Of a DNA stretch of 41,961 nt, positions 18,683-26,589 are shown one piece after another (the stretch's first letter is position 1; each line of letters opens with the position of its first letter). Made by a program: the position numbers and the translations under genes. The stretch covers positions 1 to 41,961 of the forward strand of contig CAJBBZ010000145.1 of assembly GCA_903951445.1 (NCBI GenBank), written 5' to 3'. The notes beneath the pieces were generated by a model. The model had not been told where the DNA came from. It worked only from the letters and a program-made list of their open reading frames with translations, and did no database searches. This DNA comes from an uncultured beta proteobacterium. Lineage in GTDB: Bacteria; Pseudomonadota; Gammaproteobacteria; Burkholderiales; Burkholderiaceae_C.

Positions 18683-19225
18683 TTACAGCCCGCCGTGCGA
18701 TTGGGCCGACATCATGAACAGCATGGGGATGGAAAGCATCGTATTGGTGCGTGACACCAGCATGGCCAGACGGGCAGCAGCGGCCTTTTCAGCCGGCTCC
18801 ACTTGCACAATGCCCAGGGCTTTCTTCTGGTTAGGCCAGATGATGAACCAGACGTTAAAGGCCATGATCAGGGCCAGCCACATGCCGATACCAATGGCGG
18901 CAAAGCCAATTTGAAGGCGCAGCGCCGCATGCAAATAGCCTTGCAGGCTGGCGACGATCAGGCCGGTGACCACCGTAGCCAAGGCCGCCCAACGGAACCA
19001 AAACAGTGCGGTCGGTGCAATCACCTTGCTGATAGCAGGCTTTTGCTCATCGGGGATCTTGGGCATGCTGGGGATTTGGACAAAGTTGAAATACCACAAG
19101 AGGCCAATCCACATGACGCCGCACGTAACGTGCAACCAGCGGAAGAAAAAACTCCACCATACGGGGGTCAGTTGGATGGAACTGCCTGACACAGCGCCTA
19201 CGATCAGGACGATCGCGATGAGCAA
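18683..19225 (-). CDS. PuuD-like membrane protein, possibly N-terminally disrupted
   Basis: An integral membrane protein resembling the N-terminal urate-hydroxylase domain of PuuD, with several helices and the conserved segments PVWWSFFFRWLHV and MWIGLLWYFNFVQIP. It lacks the cytochrome c domain; single-domain versions are frequent in this group, and their activity is not established. The natural start seems to be ATG 19276, which has GGAG 8 bp upstream. That frame meets a TAA at 19249-19247 after nine codons and then continues in frame as TLLAGLVLLIAIVL, the expected first helix. Translation would need a TTG (19225) or CTG start, or the gene is a fresh pseudogene. Convergence with no other gene; livK-like gene is downstream. 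Confidence 0.7.
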   Translation of the reverse strand: MLIAIVLIVGAVSGSSIQLTPVWWSFFFRWLHVTCGVMWIGLLWYFNFVQIPSMPKIPDEQKPAISKVIAPTALFWFRWAALATVVTGLIVASLQGYLHAALRLQIGFAAIGIGMWLALIMAFNVWFIIWPNQKKALGIVQVEPAEKAAAARLAMLVSRTNTMLSIPMLFMMSAQSHGGL

Positions 19226-19499
19226 GACCAGACCGGCCAGCAGTGTTTAGTGCAGGGATTGCAATATTTGGCTCATGAGCAAAACTCCAAAAAAATGATT
19301 CAGCGAAGAGTCGGATATTAACCGCTGCATTGATCTGGCGCAAAAACGCGTCCCTTTGCAGTTCGGGGCCGCCAGGCACCGAGCAGCGCCGCAGGACAGG
19401 CGCTCACTACAATCTTTGAACTGCGATTGTTGGAGCGATGTGCCATGGAGCCGAGTGAACCGCCAGCCATGGGGGACTTTTCACACCTTTGTCCTGGTG

Positions 19500-20033
19500 A
19501 TGTGGGGCGCCATGCTTGAAGCACTTTTTCTGCTGTACTTTTTAGTGCTGCTGGCGACCCTGGTGTTTAAAGGTCGCATCGTGACGGGGCCTTGGCTGTT
19601 TCTGCTTCGGGCTTTTTTCCCTAATTGGAAGTTTTTTCACGCTACGGGCAATGTGCCGCACCTATATGCGCGCTGGGCGCTGCCCAACACCGCGCCCGTA
19701 GATGCACTGCAATGGTCGCAATGGATACCTATCTTCCCGCGCCGCCCGCGCCGCCTGCTGCATGTATTTCACAACGCCGATACCAATCTGGCACTGGTGC
19801 AGCAAAACCTAGTAGAGCATTTGGCCGCAGACCTCAACCATATGGCCCCGGACGCAGACGCACGCGCACTGGTCAGCTACCAATTAGTGTCGCGCCTAGT
19901 CTGCCAAAGCCTGCAAGCCCAGCACCCGGAATGCACGCACGGGCAGTTTGAAGTGCGCATGGTGCTGGACGGAACCACGGGCTTGTTACAAGAGGACACC
20001 ATGATGCGATCGCCGGTGCTGCCATGCCGGTAA
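19500..20033 (+). CDS. single-helix membrane protein of unknown function (177 aa)
   Basis: After the start a hydrophobic helix (MLEALFLLYFLVLLATLVF) anchors the protein. RAFFPNWKFFHATGNVPHLYARW follows in spirit as an aromatic, basic juxtamembrane region, and the rest is soluble. No family is recognised. Starts at ATG 19500 and ATG 19512 are both possible; the longer frame back to 19356 adds residues with no protein-like character. It overlaps the HTTM-like gene by 10 bp, so the two are almost certainly translated together and may work together. Confidence 0.6.
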   Translation: MWGAMLEALFLLYFLVLLATLVFKGRIVTGPWLFLLRAFFPNWKFFHATGNVPHLYARWALPNTAPVDALQWSQWIPIFPRRPRRLLHVFHNADTNLALVQQNLVEHLAADLNHMAPDADARALVSYQLVSRLVCQSLQAQHPECTHGQFEVRMVLDGTTGLLQEDTMMRSPVLPCR

Positions 20034-20818
20034 GCGGCGCGGCCCGCGCGCTAGAGGTCTTGCTGGCCTTGAGCATGCTGCTGCAAACCCTGGAATATCT
20101 GCGCATACGCCAGGCCCTGACGGTACAGGGGCTATGGGCGTGGCCGGTGCAGCGCGCCGACATTCCCCCAGGCCCAGTGCAAAAGTTGCTGGATGTACTG
20201 TTTAGCGACAGCGCGATGTATGGGCATTTGCTGCTGCGCCTGCCGGTCTTGCTGGTGCTGGCTTGGCAGGGCAGCAGCCTGGCGCTGGCGGTGTTTTTGT
20301 TTGCCAGCCATGTGTTGATGCTGATCCGCTGGCGCGGTGCGTTTAACGGCGGCAGCGATTTCATGACGCTGGTGGCGCTGACCGGCTTGCTCTTGGCAGC
20401 GCTGGTCGAGCTGGGCGGCGATGCACATTTGGCCTGGCGCGCAGGCCTGTGGTACATCTGTTTGCAATCGATTACCTCGTACTTTTTGTCCGGCTGGGTC
20501 AAGCTCATGCAGCCCGAATGGCGCAGCGGCCAGGCGATGACGATTTTTCTGAACGCCGCTATTTACGGTCCTCTGCCGCCAAACAGCGTGTTGCGCAAGC
20601 CCTGGCTGGCACGCCTGGGCGCATGGGCTTTTATAGGCTGGGAGTGCGCTGCGCCGCTGGCGCTGCTGCATCCGCTGGTGGCTTTAGTTTTTTGCGCTAT
20701 TGCGCTGTTGTTTCATTTCCTGGTTTTCTGGTTTTTCGGCCTGAATCGCTTTTTTTGGGCCTGGATGGTTACATTTCCGGCCATACTTGCGTGTTCGGCG
20801 CAGCGGGTTTTTTGGTAG
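20024..20818 (+). CDS. HTTM-like polytopic membrane protein (264 aa)
   Basis: A 264-residue protein with about six hydrophobic segments. It resembles HTTM (horizontally transferred transmembrane) proteins, distant relatives of vitamin K-dependent gamma-carboxylase. Supporting features are the early LEYLRIRQAL, SHVLMLIRWRGAFNGGSDFMT in the middle, the SGWVKLMQPEWRSGQA segment and a late FHFLVFWFFGLNRFFWAW. Function in bacteria is unknown. It overlaps the preceding one-helix protein gene and is followed after 183 bp by a small SGNH-like gene on the same strand. Confidence 0.6.
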   Translation: MPVSGAARALEVLLALSMLLQTLEYLRIRQALTVQGLWAWPVQRADIPPGPVQKLLDVLFSDSAMYGHLLLRLPVLLVLAWQGSSLALAVFLFASHVLMLIRWRGAFNGGSDFMTLVALTGLLLAALVELGGDAHLAWRAGLWYICLQSITSYFLSGWVKLMQPEWRSGQAMTIFLNAAIYGPLPPNSVLRKPWLARLGAWAFIGWECAAPLALLHPLVALVFCAIALLFHFLVFWFFGLNRFFWAWMVTFPAILACSAQRVFW

Positions 20819-20859
20819 CCGGAGCGATCGTTATTCGCCAGCAAGGCCCCAAAAGTCGC

Positions 20860-20946
20860 GTAATCGCGAGGAGCGCAGCGACGTGGCGATCCAAAATGGT
20901 TTGATTGAATAAAAAAGCTGGATCGCTTCGCTGCGCTCGCAATGAC
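20860..20946. repeat. palindromic dispersed repeat (REP/MITE-like)
   Basis: The left arm (from GTAATCGCGAGGAGCGCAGC at 20860) and the right arm (reverse complement GTCATTGCGAGCGCAGCGAA, ending 20946) pair around an AT-rich centre. GTCATTGCGAG...GATCCA is the style of a dispersed palindromic repeat seen in many proteobacterial genomes. It fills most of the 183-bp gap between the HTTM-like and SGNH-like genes. Only one copy is in the window, so the repeat status is by resemblance. Confidence 0.6.
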
Positions 20947-21001
20947 GGCACGAGGGTTTTGCAGCGTGCCTCTCCATTAGCGCCATGTATAAGGAAAAAA
21001 T

Positions 21002-21427
21002 ATGTTGGAATGTTTGATCGTTGGAGATGGCATCGCCGCCAACCTGGCCGAGATGCGGCCTGAATGCAAAACCTATAGCAAAGAAGGCCTGAGCTCGCAA
21101 AAATGGAATAAGGAGTTCATGAAGAAGACGCCGCTGATCGCCAAGCGCGTCATCATCAGCCTGGGTTCGTATGACCATTTTTATGTGTTTACCGAAACCG
21201 AATTGCGTGTGCTGCGCAAGCTGACCGAAGCGGACAAGGTGTATTGGGTATTGCCTGCCGGTAACGACCCAAAGTTTCAGGTGGACATCGGCAAAACACA
21301 AAAAATTATCCGGCGCATCGCAGAAGAAAACGAAGATATCGTGCTACCCATCACCCGCACCGAAGATGACGGAATAACCCCCAACGACACAGGCTACAAA
21401 ATGCTAGCCGATCGCATTAAGAAATAA
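21002..21427 (+). CDS. small SGNH-hydrolase-like protein with replaced catalytic residues
   Basis: A 141-residue cytoplasmic-looking protein. Its block order resembles SGNH/GDSL hydrolases: LIVGDGIAANL at the N-terminus (block I, normally GDS), IISLGSYDHF at 51-60 (block III region, normally G-x-N-D), and DDGITPNDTGY at 122-132 (block V, normally D-x-x-H-P). The nucleophile Ser is Gly10 and the catalytic His is Thr126, so it should not be an active esterase if the alignment is right. AAGGAAAAAAT precedes the ATG at 21002. The 3' end overlaps the convergent sulfatase gene by 11 bp. Confidence 0.6.
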   Translation: MLECLIVGDGIAANLAEMRPECKTYSKEGLSSQKWNKEFMKKTPLIAKRVIISLGSYDHFYVFTETELRVLRKLTEADKVYWVLPAGNDPKFQVDIGKTQKIIRRIAEENEDIVLPITRTEDDGITPNDTGYKMLADRIKK

Positions 21428-23207
21428 GCTTTCGTCGCCTGCGCCAGACCACTAGCGCCCACGCCGCGCCAGCCAGCGCCAGCCACCAAGGCCAGGCAGC
21501 GCGCAGCTTGGGCAGCAGATAGTGGTGCACTGCATAATTAAATCCGGCTTTTTGTAAATCAAAGCCCTCGGGTACCGGTAACACGCCGTAGTCTTGCGCG
21601 TACTTGTCGTACGCGGCAAGCATGGAGGCAAACATTTCAGGTTGGGCGGCCTGCAGGTCTTGGGTCTCGCCGGGGTCCTGGCGCAGGTTGAACAAGCGCC
21701 ATTGCCCATCCCCCAACGGCGGGATATTTTTCACCAGTTTGTAGTCGCCCAAAAACAGCGCTGCGCTGCCTGCTAATTCGTAGCCCAGTGGCTCGTCAGG
21801 GCGGTAGGCGTAATCGGCTTTACCCTGCAGCAAAGGCAAAAGGCTACGCCCGCTCAATGCCTGCACCGTGCGGCCCGCGTACTGCCCCTGGTGCGGCTCG
21901 ATACCGGCAGCGTCGAGCAAGGTGGGCACGATGTCGTTCACATGTGTCAGCGCGGAAACCACCGCCCCAGAGGCCACGCCGGGCAATCCCGAGACGATGA
22001 GGGGCACGCGCAAGCCGCCCTCGCTGGCAAAGTATTTATAGCCGTGCAATGGCCCCACCGTGGCGCTAGCCCAGCTTGGGCCGTTGGCCGAGAACGTGCC
22101 CTTGCCGCCCAACGGCTCCACGTCTACCTGGTAGTTCATGCGTACCCAGACGTTGGCGCTGGGGATGTTGAAGGGGTCCGCCGGGTCAGAACCGTTGTCA
22201 GACAAAAACACGAACACGGTGTTGTCGTACTGGCCGCTGGATTTAAGGTGCTGCACTAGGCGGCCCACCTCGGCATCCATGGCCTCGGCCATGCCGGCGT
22301 AGACCTCCATACGGCGCGCTTGCTGGCGCTGCTTGTCGGGCGTTAAGCTGTCCCAGGCCACGGTGCTGGCCAGCGTGGCCATGGGCATACCCGCCGGCAA
22401 CATTCCTGTGCGTATCGCGCCGTCGCGGCGTGACTGGCGCAGAACCGTCCAACCCTGGTCGTAGCGGCCACGGTATTTGGCAACAAACTCTGCCGGGGCC
22501 TGAATGGGAATATGGTTGGCCTGAAAACCGATATAGGCCATAAATGGCTTGCCATCAGCGGCCTGTTCGCGGATGTAGCCAATCGTCTTATCGACAAAAA
22601 AGCGTGAGGAATAAAAGTCCTTGGGCAATTGTGCCGGCCGGTCTTGCTCAAACCAATAGGTTTTGTCGTAGAGCATCATGTAGGGCCGGTTTTCCCAGTT
22701 GTCGGTGCCGCTGTCAGCTTGGATGAACGAGCGCTCAAAACCACGACGGCCCGGCAGGTTGTCGGGTGCCTTGCCGACATGCCATTTACCCGCGATATAG
22801 GTGTGGTACCCGGAATCACGCAGCATGGTGGCAAGCGTCACCGTATCGGGTGCCAGCACGCCGGCATAGCCCGGCTTGCCCTCTTGCTCGGGCGGCGTGG
22901 TCTCGGGCATATTGCCCACGCCGTTGCGGTGGTGGTCCACGCCGGTCAGCAGCATGGCGCGGGTGGGCGAACAGGTAGCGGCCACATGGAAGTTGGAAAA
23001 GCGGCTGCCCCTGGCGGCCAAGGCATCCAGATGCGGCGTGGCGATTTCGCCGCCAAATGCGCCTACATCGCTAAAGCCCCAATCGTCTGCGACAAGGATG
23101 ACGATGTTGGGGCGGCTCTTTGCTGCAGCCCAGGCGCAGGGCAACCAGCAGGCGGCCATCCCGAGGAATAACGCAAGCGTAGGCCATCGGATATTTGCTA
23201 GCTGCAT
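21417..23207 (-). CDS. arylsulfatase, membrane-anchored periplasmic
   Basis: A 596-residue type I sulfatase of the alkaline-phosphatase superfamily. A signal peptide spans about residues 1-28. Metal ligands DD are at 41-42 in ILVADDWGF. The active-site motif is CSPTR at 79-83, in which Cys79 is converted to formylglycine by a sulfatase-maturating enzyme not encoded here. A C-terminal hydrophobic helix followed by RRRRK anchors the protein. It would release sulfate from aryl or other sulfate esters. ATG 23207 is preferred to 23255 because AAGG lies just upstream and the signal peptide begins there. Confidence 0.88.
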   Translation of the reverse strand: MQLANIRWPTLALFLGMAACWLPCAWAAAKSRPNIVILVADDWGFSDVGAFGGEIATPHLDALAARGSRFSNFHVAATCSPTRAMLLTGVDHHRNGVGNMPETTPPEQEGKPGYAGVLAPDTVTLATMLRDSGYHTYIAGKWHVGKAPDNLPGRRGFERSFIQADSGTDNWENRPYMMLYDKTYWFEQDRPAQLPKDFYSSRFFVDKTIGYIREQAADGKPFMAYIGFQANHIPIQAPAEFVAKYRGRYDQGWTVLRQSRRDGAIRTGMLPAGMPMATLASTVAWDSLTPDKQRQQARRMEVYAGMAEAMDAEVGRLVQHLKSSGQYDNTVFVFLSDNGSDPADPFNIPSANVWVRMNYQVDVEPLGGKGTFSANGPSWASATVGPLHGYKYFASEGGLRVPLIVSGLPGVASGAVVSALTHVNDIVPTLLDAAGIEPHQGQYAGRTVQALSGRSLLPLLQGKADYAYRPDEPLGYELAGSAALFLGDYKLVKNIPPLGDGQWRLFNLRQDPGETQDLQAAQPEMFASMLAAYDKYAQDYGVLPVPEGFDLQKAGFNYAVHHYLLPKLRAAWPWWLALAGAAWALVVWRRRRKLIS

Positions 23208-23281
23208 CTGAAGCCTTGGTCTGGGTAAGTTGATCAACAGCGCATTGTCGGCCATGCAAATGGGCCAGATGGATCACCAAT

Positions 23282-23349
23282 AAAAAGCCGAGCTCTTGTG
23301 GAGCGGGGCTAAGTTGATGATTTATATGGGGTAGCGGATGGGGCTCGAA
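23282..23349. repeat. left att-like repeat: partial tRNA-His 3' end plus terminator
   Basis: It matches 24478-24545 at 62 of 68 positions, with 26 consecutive identical bases in the centre (starting at GGCTAAGTTGATG). Read on the minus strand it is the last ~23 nt of tRNA-His (from TTCGAGCCCC), a short spacer, and a hairpin with a T-run. Two substitutions break the acceptor stem, and the 5' part of the tRNA is absent. Confidence 0.75.
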
Positions 23350-23421
23350 GCTAAGTCAAGATGGCACACAGAGGCTTGCAGGGGCATGTAAGTGCTTGAT
23401 TTCATTAGGTTTTTCGTTTAA

Positions 23422-23637
23422 CCCTTCTCCTCCATTCCCCTCATTTATGCCCAGATTTTGCCTGGGCATAACTTTCAATCCCTTCAAACGGCATCAAACC
23501 GTTGGCCACGGTTTGTGCGCCTACTTGAGCTACTGCGTTTGCACCATGAGCGCATTGAGGCATGGATTCTGAAGCAAGCCGGAATCAGATTCGATACGAA
23601 GGGCGACCCCAGTGCCCGACGCTTGGCGGCGTCTTAA
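23422..23637 (+). pseudogene. orphan reading-frame remnant
   Basis: This frame is open for 71 codons up to a TAA at 23635-23637 but has no ATG. The translated part (ASNRWPRFVRLLELLRLHH, then AWILKQAGIRFDTKGDPSAR) is charged and helical like real protein. I recognise no family. A hairpin TTATGCCCAG-N7-CTGGGCATAA (23445-23471) lies within it. It may be the 3' end of a gene lost when the tRNA-His element shrank. Confidence 0.3.
23445..23471. other. 10-bp perfect inverted repeat
   Basis: TTATGCCCAG and CTGGGCATAA surround a 7-nt loop (ATTTTGC). It lies inside the tRNA-His element, upstream of the toxin-antitoxin pair. No T-run follows, so a recombination or protein-binding role is as likely as termination. 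Confidence 0.45.
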
Positions 23638-23658
23638 ATATCGCATAATAGCTATAAT

Positions 23659-23982
23659 TTGAGCAATTGGACGGTCACCTTACACCCCTCAGCAGAGCCT
23701 GAATTGCTGGCGTTATCGGCAGAAATGCGCGCTCGATTCCTGCACATTGCCGAGATGATGGAAGATTTTGGACCGCAGCGAGTAGGCCTTCCACACATTC
23801 GACAATTGGAAAGCAAGCTATGGGAAATGCGGATTCAAGGCCGCGATGGGATTGCCCGTGCTGTTTATTCTGCTATTCAAGACCGCCGCTTGTTGGTGCT
23901 GCATGTCTTCGTGAAAAAGACTCAGACCACACCGCGAAGCGCCATTGCAACTGCACTCAAGCGATTGGATAAACGAATATGA
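23659..23982 (+). CDS. HigB/RelE-superfamily toxin (Gp49-like)
   Basis: A 107-residue protein of the phage-derived Gp49/HigB type, predicted to be a ribosome-dependent mRNA endonuclease. Support comes from the compact fold pattern: WTVTLHPSAEPEL at the start, HIRQLESKLWEMRIQGRDGIARAVY in the middle (Arg-rich strand of the active face), and LHVFVKKTQTTP near the end. Start is TTG 23659; homology begins at WTV and no ATG is available. TATAAT abuts the TTG, which is too close to be this gene's -10 unless the true start differs. It overlaps the antitoxin by 4 bp. Confidence 0.8.
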   Translation: MSNWTVTLHPSAEPELLALSAEMRARFLHIAEMMEDFGPQRVGLPHIRQLESKLWEMRIQGRDGIARAVYSAIQDRRLLVLHVFVKKTQTTPRSAIATALKRLDKRI

Positions 23983-24257
23983 AAACACTCAAAACGCTCA
24001 AGGCCGAACTACTGGCAGACCCTGCGACACACGCCGAATATGTCAGTGTTGCCAGCGAATTCGAGATGGCCCGTGAACTGATTGCCGCCCGAAGTCGAGC
24101 TGGCTTGACGCAAGGTGAGGTTGCCGAACGCATGGGAACCACTCAGAGCGTGGTTGCGCGCTTGGAGTCTGGCAGGCGTGCACCTTCAATGCGAACGGTT
24201 CAGCGGTATGCACAGGCCGTTGGCGCGCGTGCCGTTGTGCATCTAGAGGTTGCTTAA
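23979..24257 (+). CDS. HigA-like XRE-family antitoxin
   Basis: A 92-residue protein with a helix-turn-helix of the XRE/Cro type at about residues 40-90: SRAGLTQGEVAERMGTTQSVVARLESG is the classical pattern, described here by its ends. It should neutralise the upstream toxin and repress the operon. Its start overlaps the toxin stop in ATGA, so translation is coupled. Toxin-first order is typical of higBA. Confidence 0.85.
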   Translation: MKTLKTLKAELLADPATHAEYVSVASEFEMARELIAARSRAGLTQGEVAERMGTTQSVVARLESGRRAPSMRTVQRYAQAVGARAVVHLEVA

Positions 24258-24477
24258 AAGGAAATTCCAAAATGTTCAGGGGGACTAACCTCCCCCACCA
24301 ATATCCAGTCCCTGCTGGACTGCTGGCACTCCAAAACAGGGTTACACCAACGGGTTACCGACGATGACGCAGTTGTTTAATGCCAAGCTCATCGGTAGAG
24401 AATTTTCTACCCATTTTTTTCATGTGGGCGACCTACTGGAACGGGCCAACTCGAAGCGCTTACATGGAGCACATACA

Positions 24478-24506
24478 AAAAAGCCCCGCTCTTGTGAAGC
24501 GAGGCT
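24478..24506 (-). terminator. intrinsic terminator of tRNA-His
   Basis: On the minus strand AGCCTCGCT and AGCGGGGCT form a stem, with one G-U pair, around a 7-nt loop. TTTTTT follows. It lies 17 nt past the tRNA 3' end. Confidence 0.75.
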
Positions 24507-24545
24507 AAGTTGATGATTTATATGGGGTGGCTGATGGGGCTCGAA
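24478..24545. repeat. right att-like repeat: tRNA-His 3' end plus terminator
   Basis: This is the intact partner of 23282-23349. It covers the last ~23 nt of the functional tRNA-His and the downstream hairpin. The six mismatches between copies suggest the integration is not recent. Confidence 0.75.
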
Positions 24546-24599
24546 CCCACGACAACAGGAATCACAATCCTGGACTCTACCAACTGAGCTACAGCCACC
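24523..24599 (-). tRNA. tRNA-His (anticodon GTG)
   Basis: A full cloverleaf with encoded CCA. The 5' end has the extra G(-1) opposite C73 that is diagnostic of tRNA-His. The acceptor stem GTGGCTG/CAGCCAC is perfect, the anticodon stem is CAGGA/TCCTG with loop TTGTGAT, and the T-loop is TTCGAGC. The 3' end is the apparent integration site of the element to the left. It follows ppiD on the same strand by 52 bp. Confidence 0.97.
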
Positions 24600-24651
24600 G
24601 TAGTCCGCAATTATAAACTGGCCTCGCCTCGGCAAGACCGCGCTGCCACCA

Positions 24652-26589
24652 TTACTCGGCAGCGGCAACAGCCGCGGTGGCGCCCGCTTGGGGCTTGGCT
24701 ACTTTGATTTGCACCTTGAAGCGCTTTTTCAAGCCTTCGTAATACGCGTCCCATTCCGCACCGGCTAACCAGCGTGCCATTTGGCCGCGCTCTTGGTCGG
24801 CCACCTCTGCTTGCGGCGCGTTGCGGGGCAAGACCTTGTTCACGCGGGCTACGGCGTAGCCTTGGGCGCCAAGGTCCACACCTAGCCAAACCGGCAGGGC
24901 GGAAGTGTCCGCGCGCATGACGGCATCCATCAGCGCCGGACTCATGCCTGGAAAAGGCTGGTCGCGGCCCAGTACGGTCGCTGCGCCGAGCTTGCCTTCA
25001 TCGGCTTGTTTTTTCCAATCCGCCAGCTTGGCTTGGCCTTCTTTTTTGGCCATTTCCTGGGCGCGTGATTGCACCAGGCGCGCTTTCACTTCCGCCTTGA
25101 CTTCGTCTAGCGGGCGGGTGCGCGCCGGGTAGTGCTTGCTGATGCGTGCCGCAACCATCTGGCTGGGGCCGGTTTCTATGGCTTCTGTATTGTGTTTTTT
25201 CTCGATCGCGTCGGCGCTAAACAAAGCGGCCAGCAGTTTGGCATTCGCGAGCGGGCCGGCGGCGCCATTGGCCGGGTTTTTCGGCACAGCATTGGCACTT
25301 TGGATGCTCAGCTTCAGGCGATCGGCCGCGGCTTGCAAACTGTCGGCTTGTTCATAGACGGCGTTGGTAAACACCTCAGCCTGCTCAGCAAACTTCTTCT
25401 GCGCCTGTTGGGTTTTCAATTCGGTTTCCAGCTTTTCGCGCATGCTGTCAAAGCTGGGGGCCGCTGGCGTTTTGATGTCGGTCAAGCGGATGATGTGGTA
25501 GCCAAAATCGCTTTCCACCAAGCCGCTGATTTCGCCTTTTTTCAGCGCAAACGCGCTTTCCTCAAAGGGCTTGACCATGGCGCCACGGGCAAAGAAATCC
25601 AGGTCACCGCCTTTGGCTGCGGAACCGGGGTCTTGCGAAAACTTGGTAGCCAGTTGGGCAAAGCTGTCGGGCTTGGCTTTGACTTTGTCCAGCACATCTT
25701 GCGCCAGCGCCTTGGCTTTTTCACGTTCGGCGGCGGGCATGTCTTTGGACGCGCTGATCAGGATATGGCTGGCGCGGCGCTCTTCTTTGGACTGCAGGCG
25801 CGCCGTGTTTTGTTCGTAATAGGTACGCACATCCGCTTCGGGCACGCTGATCGACTTTTTCACCGCTTCCAGGTCGAACACCAAGTACTGCACATCGGCC
25901 GTCTCGGGCGCTTGGAACAGCGCGCTATTGGCCTTGTAATAGGCTTCGATGTCTGCGTCGCTGGTTTGCACTTTCGCCGCGAAATCTGAGGTGCTAAAAC
26001 GCACCAGCTGCACATCGCGCCGCTCAAAAAACGCATTCAAAGCCATATCCGCCACGGCCTTGGGGGCGAACGCGGTACTGTTTAACCCCGACTCCACTTG
26101 CCGCAGCGACAAGTCCTGGCGGATACGCGCTTCCAGACCGGCGGTGGTCAAGCCCTGGCTGGCGGCAATTTGTTCGTAGCGCTCTTTGTCGAAGCTGCCA
26201 TCGGGCTTTTTTAGTGAGGCGATGGCGGGGATCTGCTGCAACTCGCGCGCCAGACGCGCATCGGTGATGGGCAGCAAGGAGGCGCCCACCGCTTCGTTCA
26301 TTACGCGCTCGCGCACCAGACGCTCCAGCGTGACGTAGCGCGCTTCGGGGGAATCCATCATCTTGGCATCCAACTCGGGGCGAGACGCGCGCAGGCGATC
26401 GACCTCGTTCTTGTGGGCGGCGTCCCATTCGGATTGGGTGATGGTGTAGCTGGCAACTTTGGCCACAGCGCCACCAGAGCCGTTGCTGCGCTGGTATCCG
26501 TCCACACCCACCAGCACGAAAGCGGGAATGATCAACAAGAACATGACAAACATCATGATCTTGGTGTGCTTGCGGACGAATTCAAACAT
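24652..26589 (-). CDS. ppiD: PpiD-like periplasmic chaperone / peptidyl-prolyl isomerase (SurA_N + parvulin)
   Basis: A 645-residue inner-membrane-anchored chaperone near the Sec translocon. A short cytoplasmic start (MFEFVRKHTK) precedes a single helix at about residues 11-30. A SurA-N-like region follows (to ~230), then one parvulin-type PPIC domain at about 265-370 (SHILISASKDMP ... GYHIIRLTDI). The C-terminus is Ala-rich. Length is close to E. coli PpiD (623 aa). GGAG lies 8 bp before ATG 26589. tRNA-Val lies just upstream on the same strand, separated by a terminator hairpin. Confidence 0.9.
   Translation of the reverse strand: MFEFVRKHTKIMMFVMFLLIIPAFVLVGVDGYQRSNGSGGAVAKVASYTITQSEWDAAHKNEVDRLRASRPELDAKMMDSPEARYVTLERLVRERVMNEAVGASLLPITDARLARELQQIPAIASLKKPDGSFDKERYEQIAASQGLTTAGLEARIRQDLSLRQVESGLNSTAFAPKAVADMALNAFFERRDVQLVRFSTSDFAAKVQTSDADIEAYYKANSALFQAPETADVQYLVFDLEAVKKSISVPEADVRTYYEQNTARLQSKEERRASHILISASKDMPAAEREKAKALAQDVLDKVKAKPDSFAQLATKFSQDPGSAAKGGDLDFFARGAMVKPFEESAFALKKGEISGLVESDFGYHIIRLTDIKTPAAPSFDSMREKLETELKTQQAQKKFAEQAEVFTNAVYEQADSLQAAADRLKLSIQSANAVPKNPANGAAGPLANAKLLAALFSADAIEKKHNTEAIETGPSQMVAARISKHYPARTRPLDEVKAEVKARLVQSRAQEMAKKEGQAKLADWKKQADEGKLGAATVLGRDQPFPGMSPALMDAVMRADTSALPVWLGVDLGAQGYAVARVNKVLPRNAPQAEVADQERGQMARWLAGAEWDAYYEGLKKRFKVQIKVAKPQAGATAAVAAAE

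Follow-up and report, generated by a model that had tools for sequence, protein, structure and literature searches.

Layout of the tRNA-His locus

The window analysed here is a stretch of 41,961 nucleotides from a metagenome bin (G000; 294 contigs, 3.7% contamination), the closest named relatives of which are freshwater Comamonadaceae bins filed as Comamonadaceae, Comamonas sp. or Rhodoferax sp. Between a sulfatase gene and a gene for a PpiD-type peptidylprolyl isomerase, it holds an intact tRNA-His gene, a partial copy of the 3' end of this gene and, enclosed by the two, a short insert with a toxin-antitoxin pair. The features are listed below, with their evidence in brackets.

21417..23255 (-): sulfatase gene, native flank (Pfam; synteny, as it adjoins tRNA-His directly in the related genome G107)
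23282..23326 (-): terminator, far copy, followed by the upstream region of the native sulfatase (repeat)
23327..23349 (-): tRNA-His 3' end, far copy, nucleotides 54-76, 21/23 identical (repeat alignment)
23350..23514 (.): arm adjoining the far tRNA end, with inverted repeats at 23445-23471 and 23495-23515 (common to G019, G027, G121 and G097)
23515..23637 (+): C-terminal stub of a tyrosine integrase, last 40 codons and stop (tblastn 52-58%; protein search; reading frame)
23659..23982 (+): toxin of the Gp49/DUF891 family (PF05973), 107 aa, TTG start (Pfam 6e-25; start aligned with the ATG of relatives)
23979..24257 (+): antitoxin of the HTH_3 family, 92 aa, overlapping the toxin by 4 bases (Pfam 2e-12)
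24394..24411 (+): terminator-like hairpin 3' of the antitoxin (consensus scan only)
24478..24522 (-): tRNA terminator, tRNA-side copy (repeat; terminator-like scan, 24506-24482)
24523..24598 (-): tRNA-His, GTG anticodon, intact, the insertion target (ARAGORN; Rfam tRNA 62.7 bits)
24652..26589 (-): PpiD-type peptidylprolyl isomerase, tRNA-side flank (Pfam and NCBIfam)

The direct repeats at 23282-23349 and 24478-24545 are identical at 62 of 68 bases, and at 21 of 23 within the tRNA part (blastn E 1.9e-20 in a search inside the window). ARAGORN finds a single intact tRNA-His in the window, at 24523-24598 (-), together with one tRNA-Val, and the far copy comprises tRNA-His nucleotides 54-76 only, which is too little for a second tRNA gene. 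An earlier note on this DNA, which had described two 68-bp repeats, each with the tRNA-His 3' end and its terminator, and an intact tRNA at one end with a partial copy at the other, was therefore right on all of these points, the far copy consisting of 23 tRNA bases and the 45-base terminator. When the terminator with the tRNA end was searched against the 294 contigs of its own genome, no third copy was found at E <= 0.001, and the sole other match was a 74% match to the tRNA body. The G+C content is 52% in the insert vs 59% in the window, and a scan for sigma-70 promoters gave no promoter-like site within 23250-24620. An Rfam match to CRISPR-DR33 at 23612-23648 was dropped, with 22.1 bits against a cut-off of 39. 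In genomes of the genus, the 45-bp terminator sequence (window 24475-24520) recurs behind tRNA-Thr and, more weakly, behind tRNA-Lys and tRNA-Phe.

The empty site and the locus in relatives

In G107 (L100, the same locus as L186), the tRNA-His gene and one terminator directly adjoin the sulfatase, and the genes beyond it are also those of the window. Since this genome has an empty site with a single tRNA end, the extra 1,196 bp of the window, one repeat period in length, are an insertion. An empty locus still carrying both tRNA fragments, or a tandem tRNA array, had been named in advance as patterns that would speak against an insertion; G107, which lacks the insert, has one tRNA end, and no array was seen at this locus in the relatives. 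G010 was also considered as an empty site and rejected, because it is a secondary deletion in which the final ~50 codons of the sulfatase remain beside the tRNA terminator.

The insertion is shared by G019, at 93% identity over 23000-23928. The order of sulfatase, terminator, arm, stub and toxin is the same in both, with 91-93% identity over 18966-23928 save for a gap at 20818-20979. The contig of G019 begins inside the toxin, leaving the antitoxin and the tRNA side outside it, and the tRNA-side junction (24257-24477) is present in the window only. A further genome, G126, holds two tRNA-His loci (L179/L095 on contig C2 and L180 on C23), possibly a duplicate or contamination.

An integrase tail and a toxin-antitoxin pair

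Read from the far end, the insert consists of the tRNA-His 3' end with its terminator, the arm, the integrase tail, a 21-bp spacer from the integrase stop to the toxin start and a Gp49/HTH pair that reads towards the tRNA. The earlier note had described this cargo as having no integrase, which overlooked the C-terminal stub at 23515-23637. The stub is the only site-specific recombinase sequence in the insert, 40 codons long, and matches, stop codon included, a clade of tyrosine integrases of ~460 aa (tblastn E 2e-4 to 1e-3 for the window, 3e-10 to 1e-9 for the copy in G019). In a genome-wide protein search, 23485-23628 showed 52% identity over integrase residues 410-455 (E 8e-9).

The toxin and the HTH antitoxin are adjacent and both open, which fits a type II toxin-antitoxin system of the Gp49/HTH type. 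Their previous description as higBA-like holds at the superfamily level only, as the toxin has no match to the Pfam HigB model PF05015 at E <= 0.001 and PF05973 alone was reported. In three loci from other genera (L336, L342 and L359), a toxin of the window's family comes after an intact integrase, and ATG stands at the position of the TTG of the window. The window pair reads open and may still work; the toxin copy of G019 is broken, having lost its start codon and gained an internal stop, so that any retention in G019 has ended. The same toxin-antitoxin family also lies directly behind PpiD in two Ramlibacter bins (L165, 2876-3537, and L174, 12258-12919), and tRNA-His follows after about 0.6-2.6 kb, on the opposite strand. 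At neither locus, where the pair is not at a tRNA end, did we find an integrase stub, and both were left out of the analysis.

Complete islands and the targets of the integrase clade

Among 85 tRNA-His loci (0 to 10 kb of downstream sequence per locus), a second tRNA-His end was present in three, namely the window, L155 and L171. L155, from Comamonas badia DSM 17552, is a complete island of 8.36 kb, and L171, from the Burkholderiales bin UW2SPNA026, is one of 7.25 kb; in each, the second tRNA-His core is identical at 49/49 bases and an integrase of the clade (about 50% identical) lies just inside the far end. A toxin 76.7% and an antitoxin 73.9% identical to those of the window begin 21 bp behind the stop of the intact integrase in L171. 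No toxin-antitoxin pair is present directly behind the integrase of L155.

Clade integrases of 462-463 aa also lie just inside a 50-base tRNA-His 3' end in G110, G114 and G122. A domain scan of the G122 and G114 proteins found Arm-DNA-bind_3 and Phage_integrase domains in both. In these two genomes the integrase is followed by a toxin-antitoxin pair, a small gene (in G122 only, with a weak, sub-cut-off HTH_17 match) and a primase/helicase.

The targets of 24 integrases were examined by comparing the 500 bp upstream, or whatever a contig end left of them, with the tRNAs of the fetched loci. A tRNA 3' end of 45-52 bases was present at 19/24, of which 7 were tRNA-His and the rest Thr, Met, Lys and Phe; a further 3/24 had 32-38 bases of tRNA-Met, one had a weak 19-base match and one had none. 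The window repeat, with 23 tRNA bases and 45 terminator bases, is shorter in the tRNA than the 45-52 bases of these 19 sites, so the description of its ends as exactly those left by integrase-mediated insertion goes too far. Moreover, the ends of L171 diverge right behind the tRNA, as expected when an island brings its own tRNA-side sequence, whereas the window has almost the same terminator on both sides. As this terminator is common to other tRNAs of the genus, our guess is that an island from a related host may have brought the copy of the window.

The slot behind the integrase

The genus set comprised 103 genomes, 72 of them with any integrase match, and 36 C-terminus places, 35 with >= 600 bp downstream; G019 was dropped, its downstream sequence being too short. 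Pairs were called by reading by hand, not blind, the translated ORFs starting <=600 bp downstream, supported by Pfam tallies. At 24/35 sites (20 full, 4 partial), or 23/34 without the window, the clade integrase is directly followed by a complete or partial type II toxin-antitoxin pair, with Pfam toxin matches to HigB (10), Gp49 (3), BrnT (3), HicA (1), TumE (1) and PIN (1). The control consisted of 39 other tyrosine integrases found in the same search of the genus, 35 of them usable (3 had short downstream sequence and 1 was open at a contig end). A pair, HicAB, followed 1/35 of these (Fisher p 4.6e-9), and AlpA accounted for 10 of 70 control ORFs.

The count was replicated in 398 genomes of the family, 76 of which had a match at E <= 1e-40. 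From the places listed, the 56 higher-scoring loci were taken and 53 were usable (L346 and L350 have no C-terminal match, and L365 is short downstream). In these other genera, 33/53 integrases were followed by a pair or part of one (30 with a toxin gene, 3 with the antitoxin alone; p 4.0e-9 vs the same control), the Pfam toxin matches being Gp49 15, HigB 5, HicA 2, BrnT 2, RelE 2 and PIN 1, where one protein may match two models. Counting Pfam toxins only, the figures are 19/35 (p 1.8e-6) and 27/53 (p 9.8e-7). At least six toxin families occupy the slot, and 11/35 sites in the genus and 20/53 in other genera have no pair. The contrast marks this integrase clade as special, not the cause, the control being a different subfamily.

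Exchange of the content of the slot can be read from G114 and G122, whose integrases share 97.2% DNA identity over 1,607 bp. The match breaks off about 30 bp short of the integrase stop codon, and the two sequences become homologous again 3.6 kb further on; directly behind the integrase lies BrnTA in G114 and HigBA in G122. At another place, L056 (G022:C8, 6285-8539), a broken integrase end, HigBA, an integrase stub, a Gp49/HTH pair with a broken toxin and a HigA-like ORF stand in a row.

The arm and the origin of the insert

The block of terminator, tRNA end and arm also occurs in G019, in G027:C22 (beside HigBA), twice in G121:C19 and in G097:C94, and the arm recurs weakly in G028. Without a tRNA-His fragment, the arm alone lies beside a MazEF pair (Pfam) in L177 (G097:C23, 6488-7404), and it also recurs beside cargo other than toxin-antitoxin pairs. 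Because the arm profile was built from six arms, matches to those six are by construction; beyond them it matched G028, the first fragment of G121, the second of G097:C94 and G097:C78. In L175 (G121:C19, 6546-13926), an apparent sulfur-metabolism cargo, the gene names coming from reading only, is enclosed by two fragments of the tRNA-His end that lie 7.3 kb apart, and the inverted repeat at 23445-23471 keeps pairing in G121 with different bases, as judged by eye.

In G110, G114 and G122, the sequence from the core to the integrase is unlike the arm. It may therefore be that arm and stub derive from two islands fused by deletion, which would make the element a composite.

Taking the locus as a whole, the 1,196-bp insert is very probably the remnant of a tRNA-His island with an integrase tail and a toxin-antitoxin pair, and a degraded island is the best reading of it. 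Intact islands of the clade have the integrase just inside the far tRNA end and then directly a type II pair, once (L171) of the same family. We propose that the integrase would have recombined an island into the tRNA-His 3' end, restoring the tRNA, and that later deletions would have taken away the greater part of the integrase, along with the genes that separated the pair from the tRNA. The pair itself would have survived these deletions, loss of the antitoxin being harmful as long as the toxin persists. With no integrase, and with the far core changed at 2/23 bases, the remnant could not move by itself. Points against this explanation are the short tRNA repeat, the arm unlike that of G110, G114 and G122, the lack of a pair in L155 and at 11/35 and 20/53 clade sites, the non-significant difference between truncated and intact integrases in keeping a pair (see below), and the broken toxin of G019.

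Another reading, which we consider unlikely, takes the insert for a non-autonomous unit, in which the terminator, the tRNA-His 3' end and the 165-bp arm form the end of an integrase-less element moved in trans, with the pair as cargo. The recurrence of the block, and of the arm alone in G097:C23, is in keeping with such a unit, and no integrase was detected beside the recurring arms in stretches L049, L059, L175, L176, L177 and L178; these stretches, however, are limited by their contigs, and the integrase set used to scan them was small. A dedicated 1.2-kb unit would have no need of the integrase stub that follows the arm in the window. Furthermore, a search of the 103 genus genomes with the first 211 bp found no second copy of the 1.2-kb unit elsewhere; only the match in G019, the contig of which begins in the toxin, carried the stub and the toxin of the window.

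Much less probable is a decayed tandem duplication of tRNA-His, in which the far fragment would be what is left of a second gene and the pair would have slipped in between. The repeat does include the terminator, like a duplicated tRNA gene, but relatives have one tRNA-His at this locus, the empty site of G107 has one terminator, and the fragment runs into an arm known from elsewhere and into an integrase stub. It is just as improbable that the structure is an assembly artefact, since the separate assembly of G019 agrees with it over 18966-23928 save 20818-20979, even if repeats invite misassembly in a bin of 294 contigs with 3.7% contamination.

Selection and decay

Between the window and G019, divergence amounts to 9.5% of sites in the sulfatase, 4.6% in the arm, 15.7% in the integrase stub and 2.6% in the toxin, the last being lower than in arm plus stub (p=0.001) and in the sulfatase (p=4e-5). 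These values suit a toxin that was under selection until recently, or else local recombination.

When all sites were pooled, a pair was kept behind 14/17 truncated vs 40/68 intact integrases (p=0.09), and in the genus alone behind 9/10 vs 12/22 (p=0.11), neither difference being significant. Among the matches listed, stubs with the C-terminus only occur at 8 places, at least 2 of which are one event, vs none with an interior N-terminus only (p=0.008 if independent). This excess is a weak sign, as the C-terminus is the better conserved end and the places depend in part on one another. We rate it as about an even chance that the deletion was halted by the toxin-antitoxin pair itself. The first of the two options in the earlier note, a small remnant of an island stabilised by its toxin-antitoxin module, thus stands for the remnant, given the empty site of G107, the stub and L171; the stabilisation is something that we infer, with p=0.09 in the pooled test.

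A wider proposal is offered tentatively, with rather less than an even chance of being right as we judge it: the slot behind one tRNA-targeting integrase clade may act across the Comamonadaceae as an exchange site for pairs, and decay may halt at a pair that is costly to lose, leaving recurrent and stackable fossils of integrase tail and pair (as in G022:C8) that would seed orphan pairs. Orphan toxin-antitoxin pairs are common in chromosomes, and where they come from is usually a matter of guesswork; here the origin is readable from the integrase tail and the tRNA end. Should the slot prove general, such fossils could be traced by their integrase tails, and pairs as the end point of island decay would become countable.

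Comparison with known systems

Islands in tRNA genes, their remnants and the pairs that keep them are already known. The tycheposons of Prochlorococcus are tRNA-targeted integrative elements, many of which have lost their recombinases. They differ from the window element in hosts and enzymes.

P4-like phage satellites have a hotspot for accessory genes, located between psu and int (Rousset, 2022; PMC9122126). As in the clade studied here, this is a rotating accessory slot beside the integrase that can hold toxin-antitoxin-like systems (PMC9122126), and G114 and G122 likewise carry an integrase and a primase/helicase, the likeness being one of these genes alone. Unlike that hotspot, the slot described here begins right after the 3' end of int, and most of its content is type II pairs. 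CGI48 of Shewanella is a composite island at tRNA-Trp stabilised by HipAB, and its authors further mention composite islands that owe their stability to truncated att sites or integrases (PMC8978831). CGI48 resembles the window element in being integrated at a tRNA and kept by a toxin-antitoxin pair, a retention that is inferred in our case, and differs in being 48 kb long and excisable, whereas the latter is a 1.2-kb remnant (PMC8978831). MosAT of SXT is a toxin-antitoxin pair reported to promote the maintenance of an integrative element, and SXT is a large conjugative element and not a remnant, unlike the insert of the window (PMC2654960). A word-match search of the literature, mostly at the level of titles and abstracts, found no paper on this integrase/toxin-antitoxin slot. 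What seems to be new in comparison with these systems is a slot directly 3' of the integrases of this clade, in which type II pairs predominate, together with the recurrent fossils in which an integrase tail is joined to a pair.
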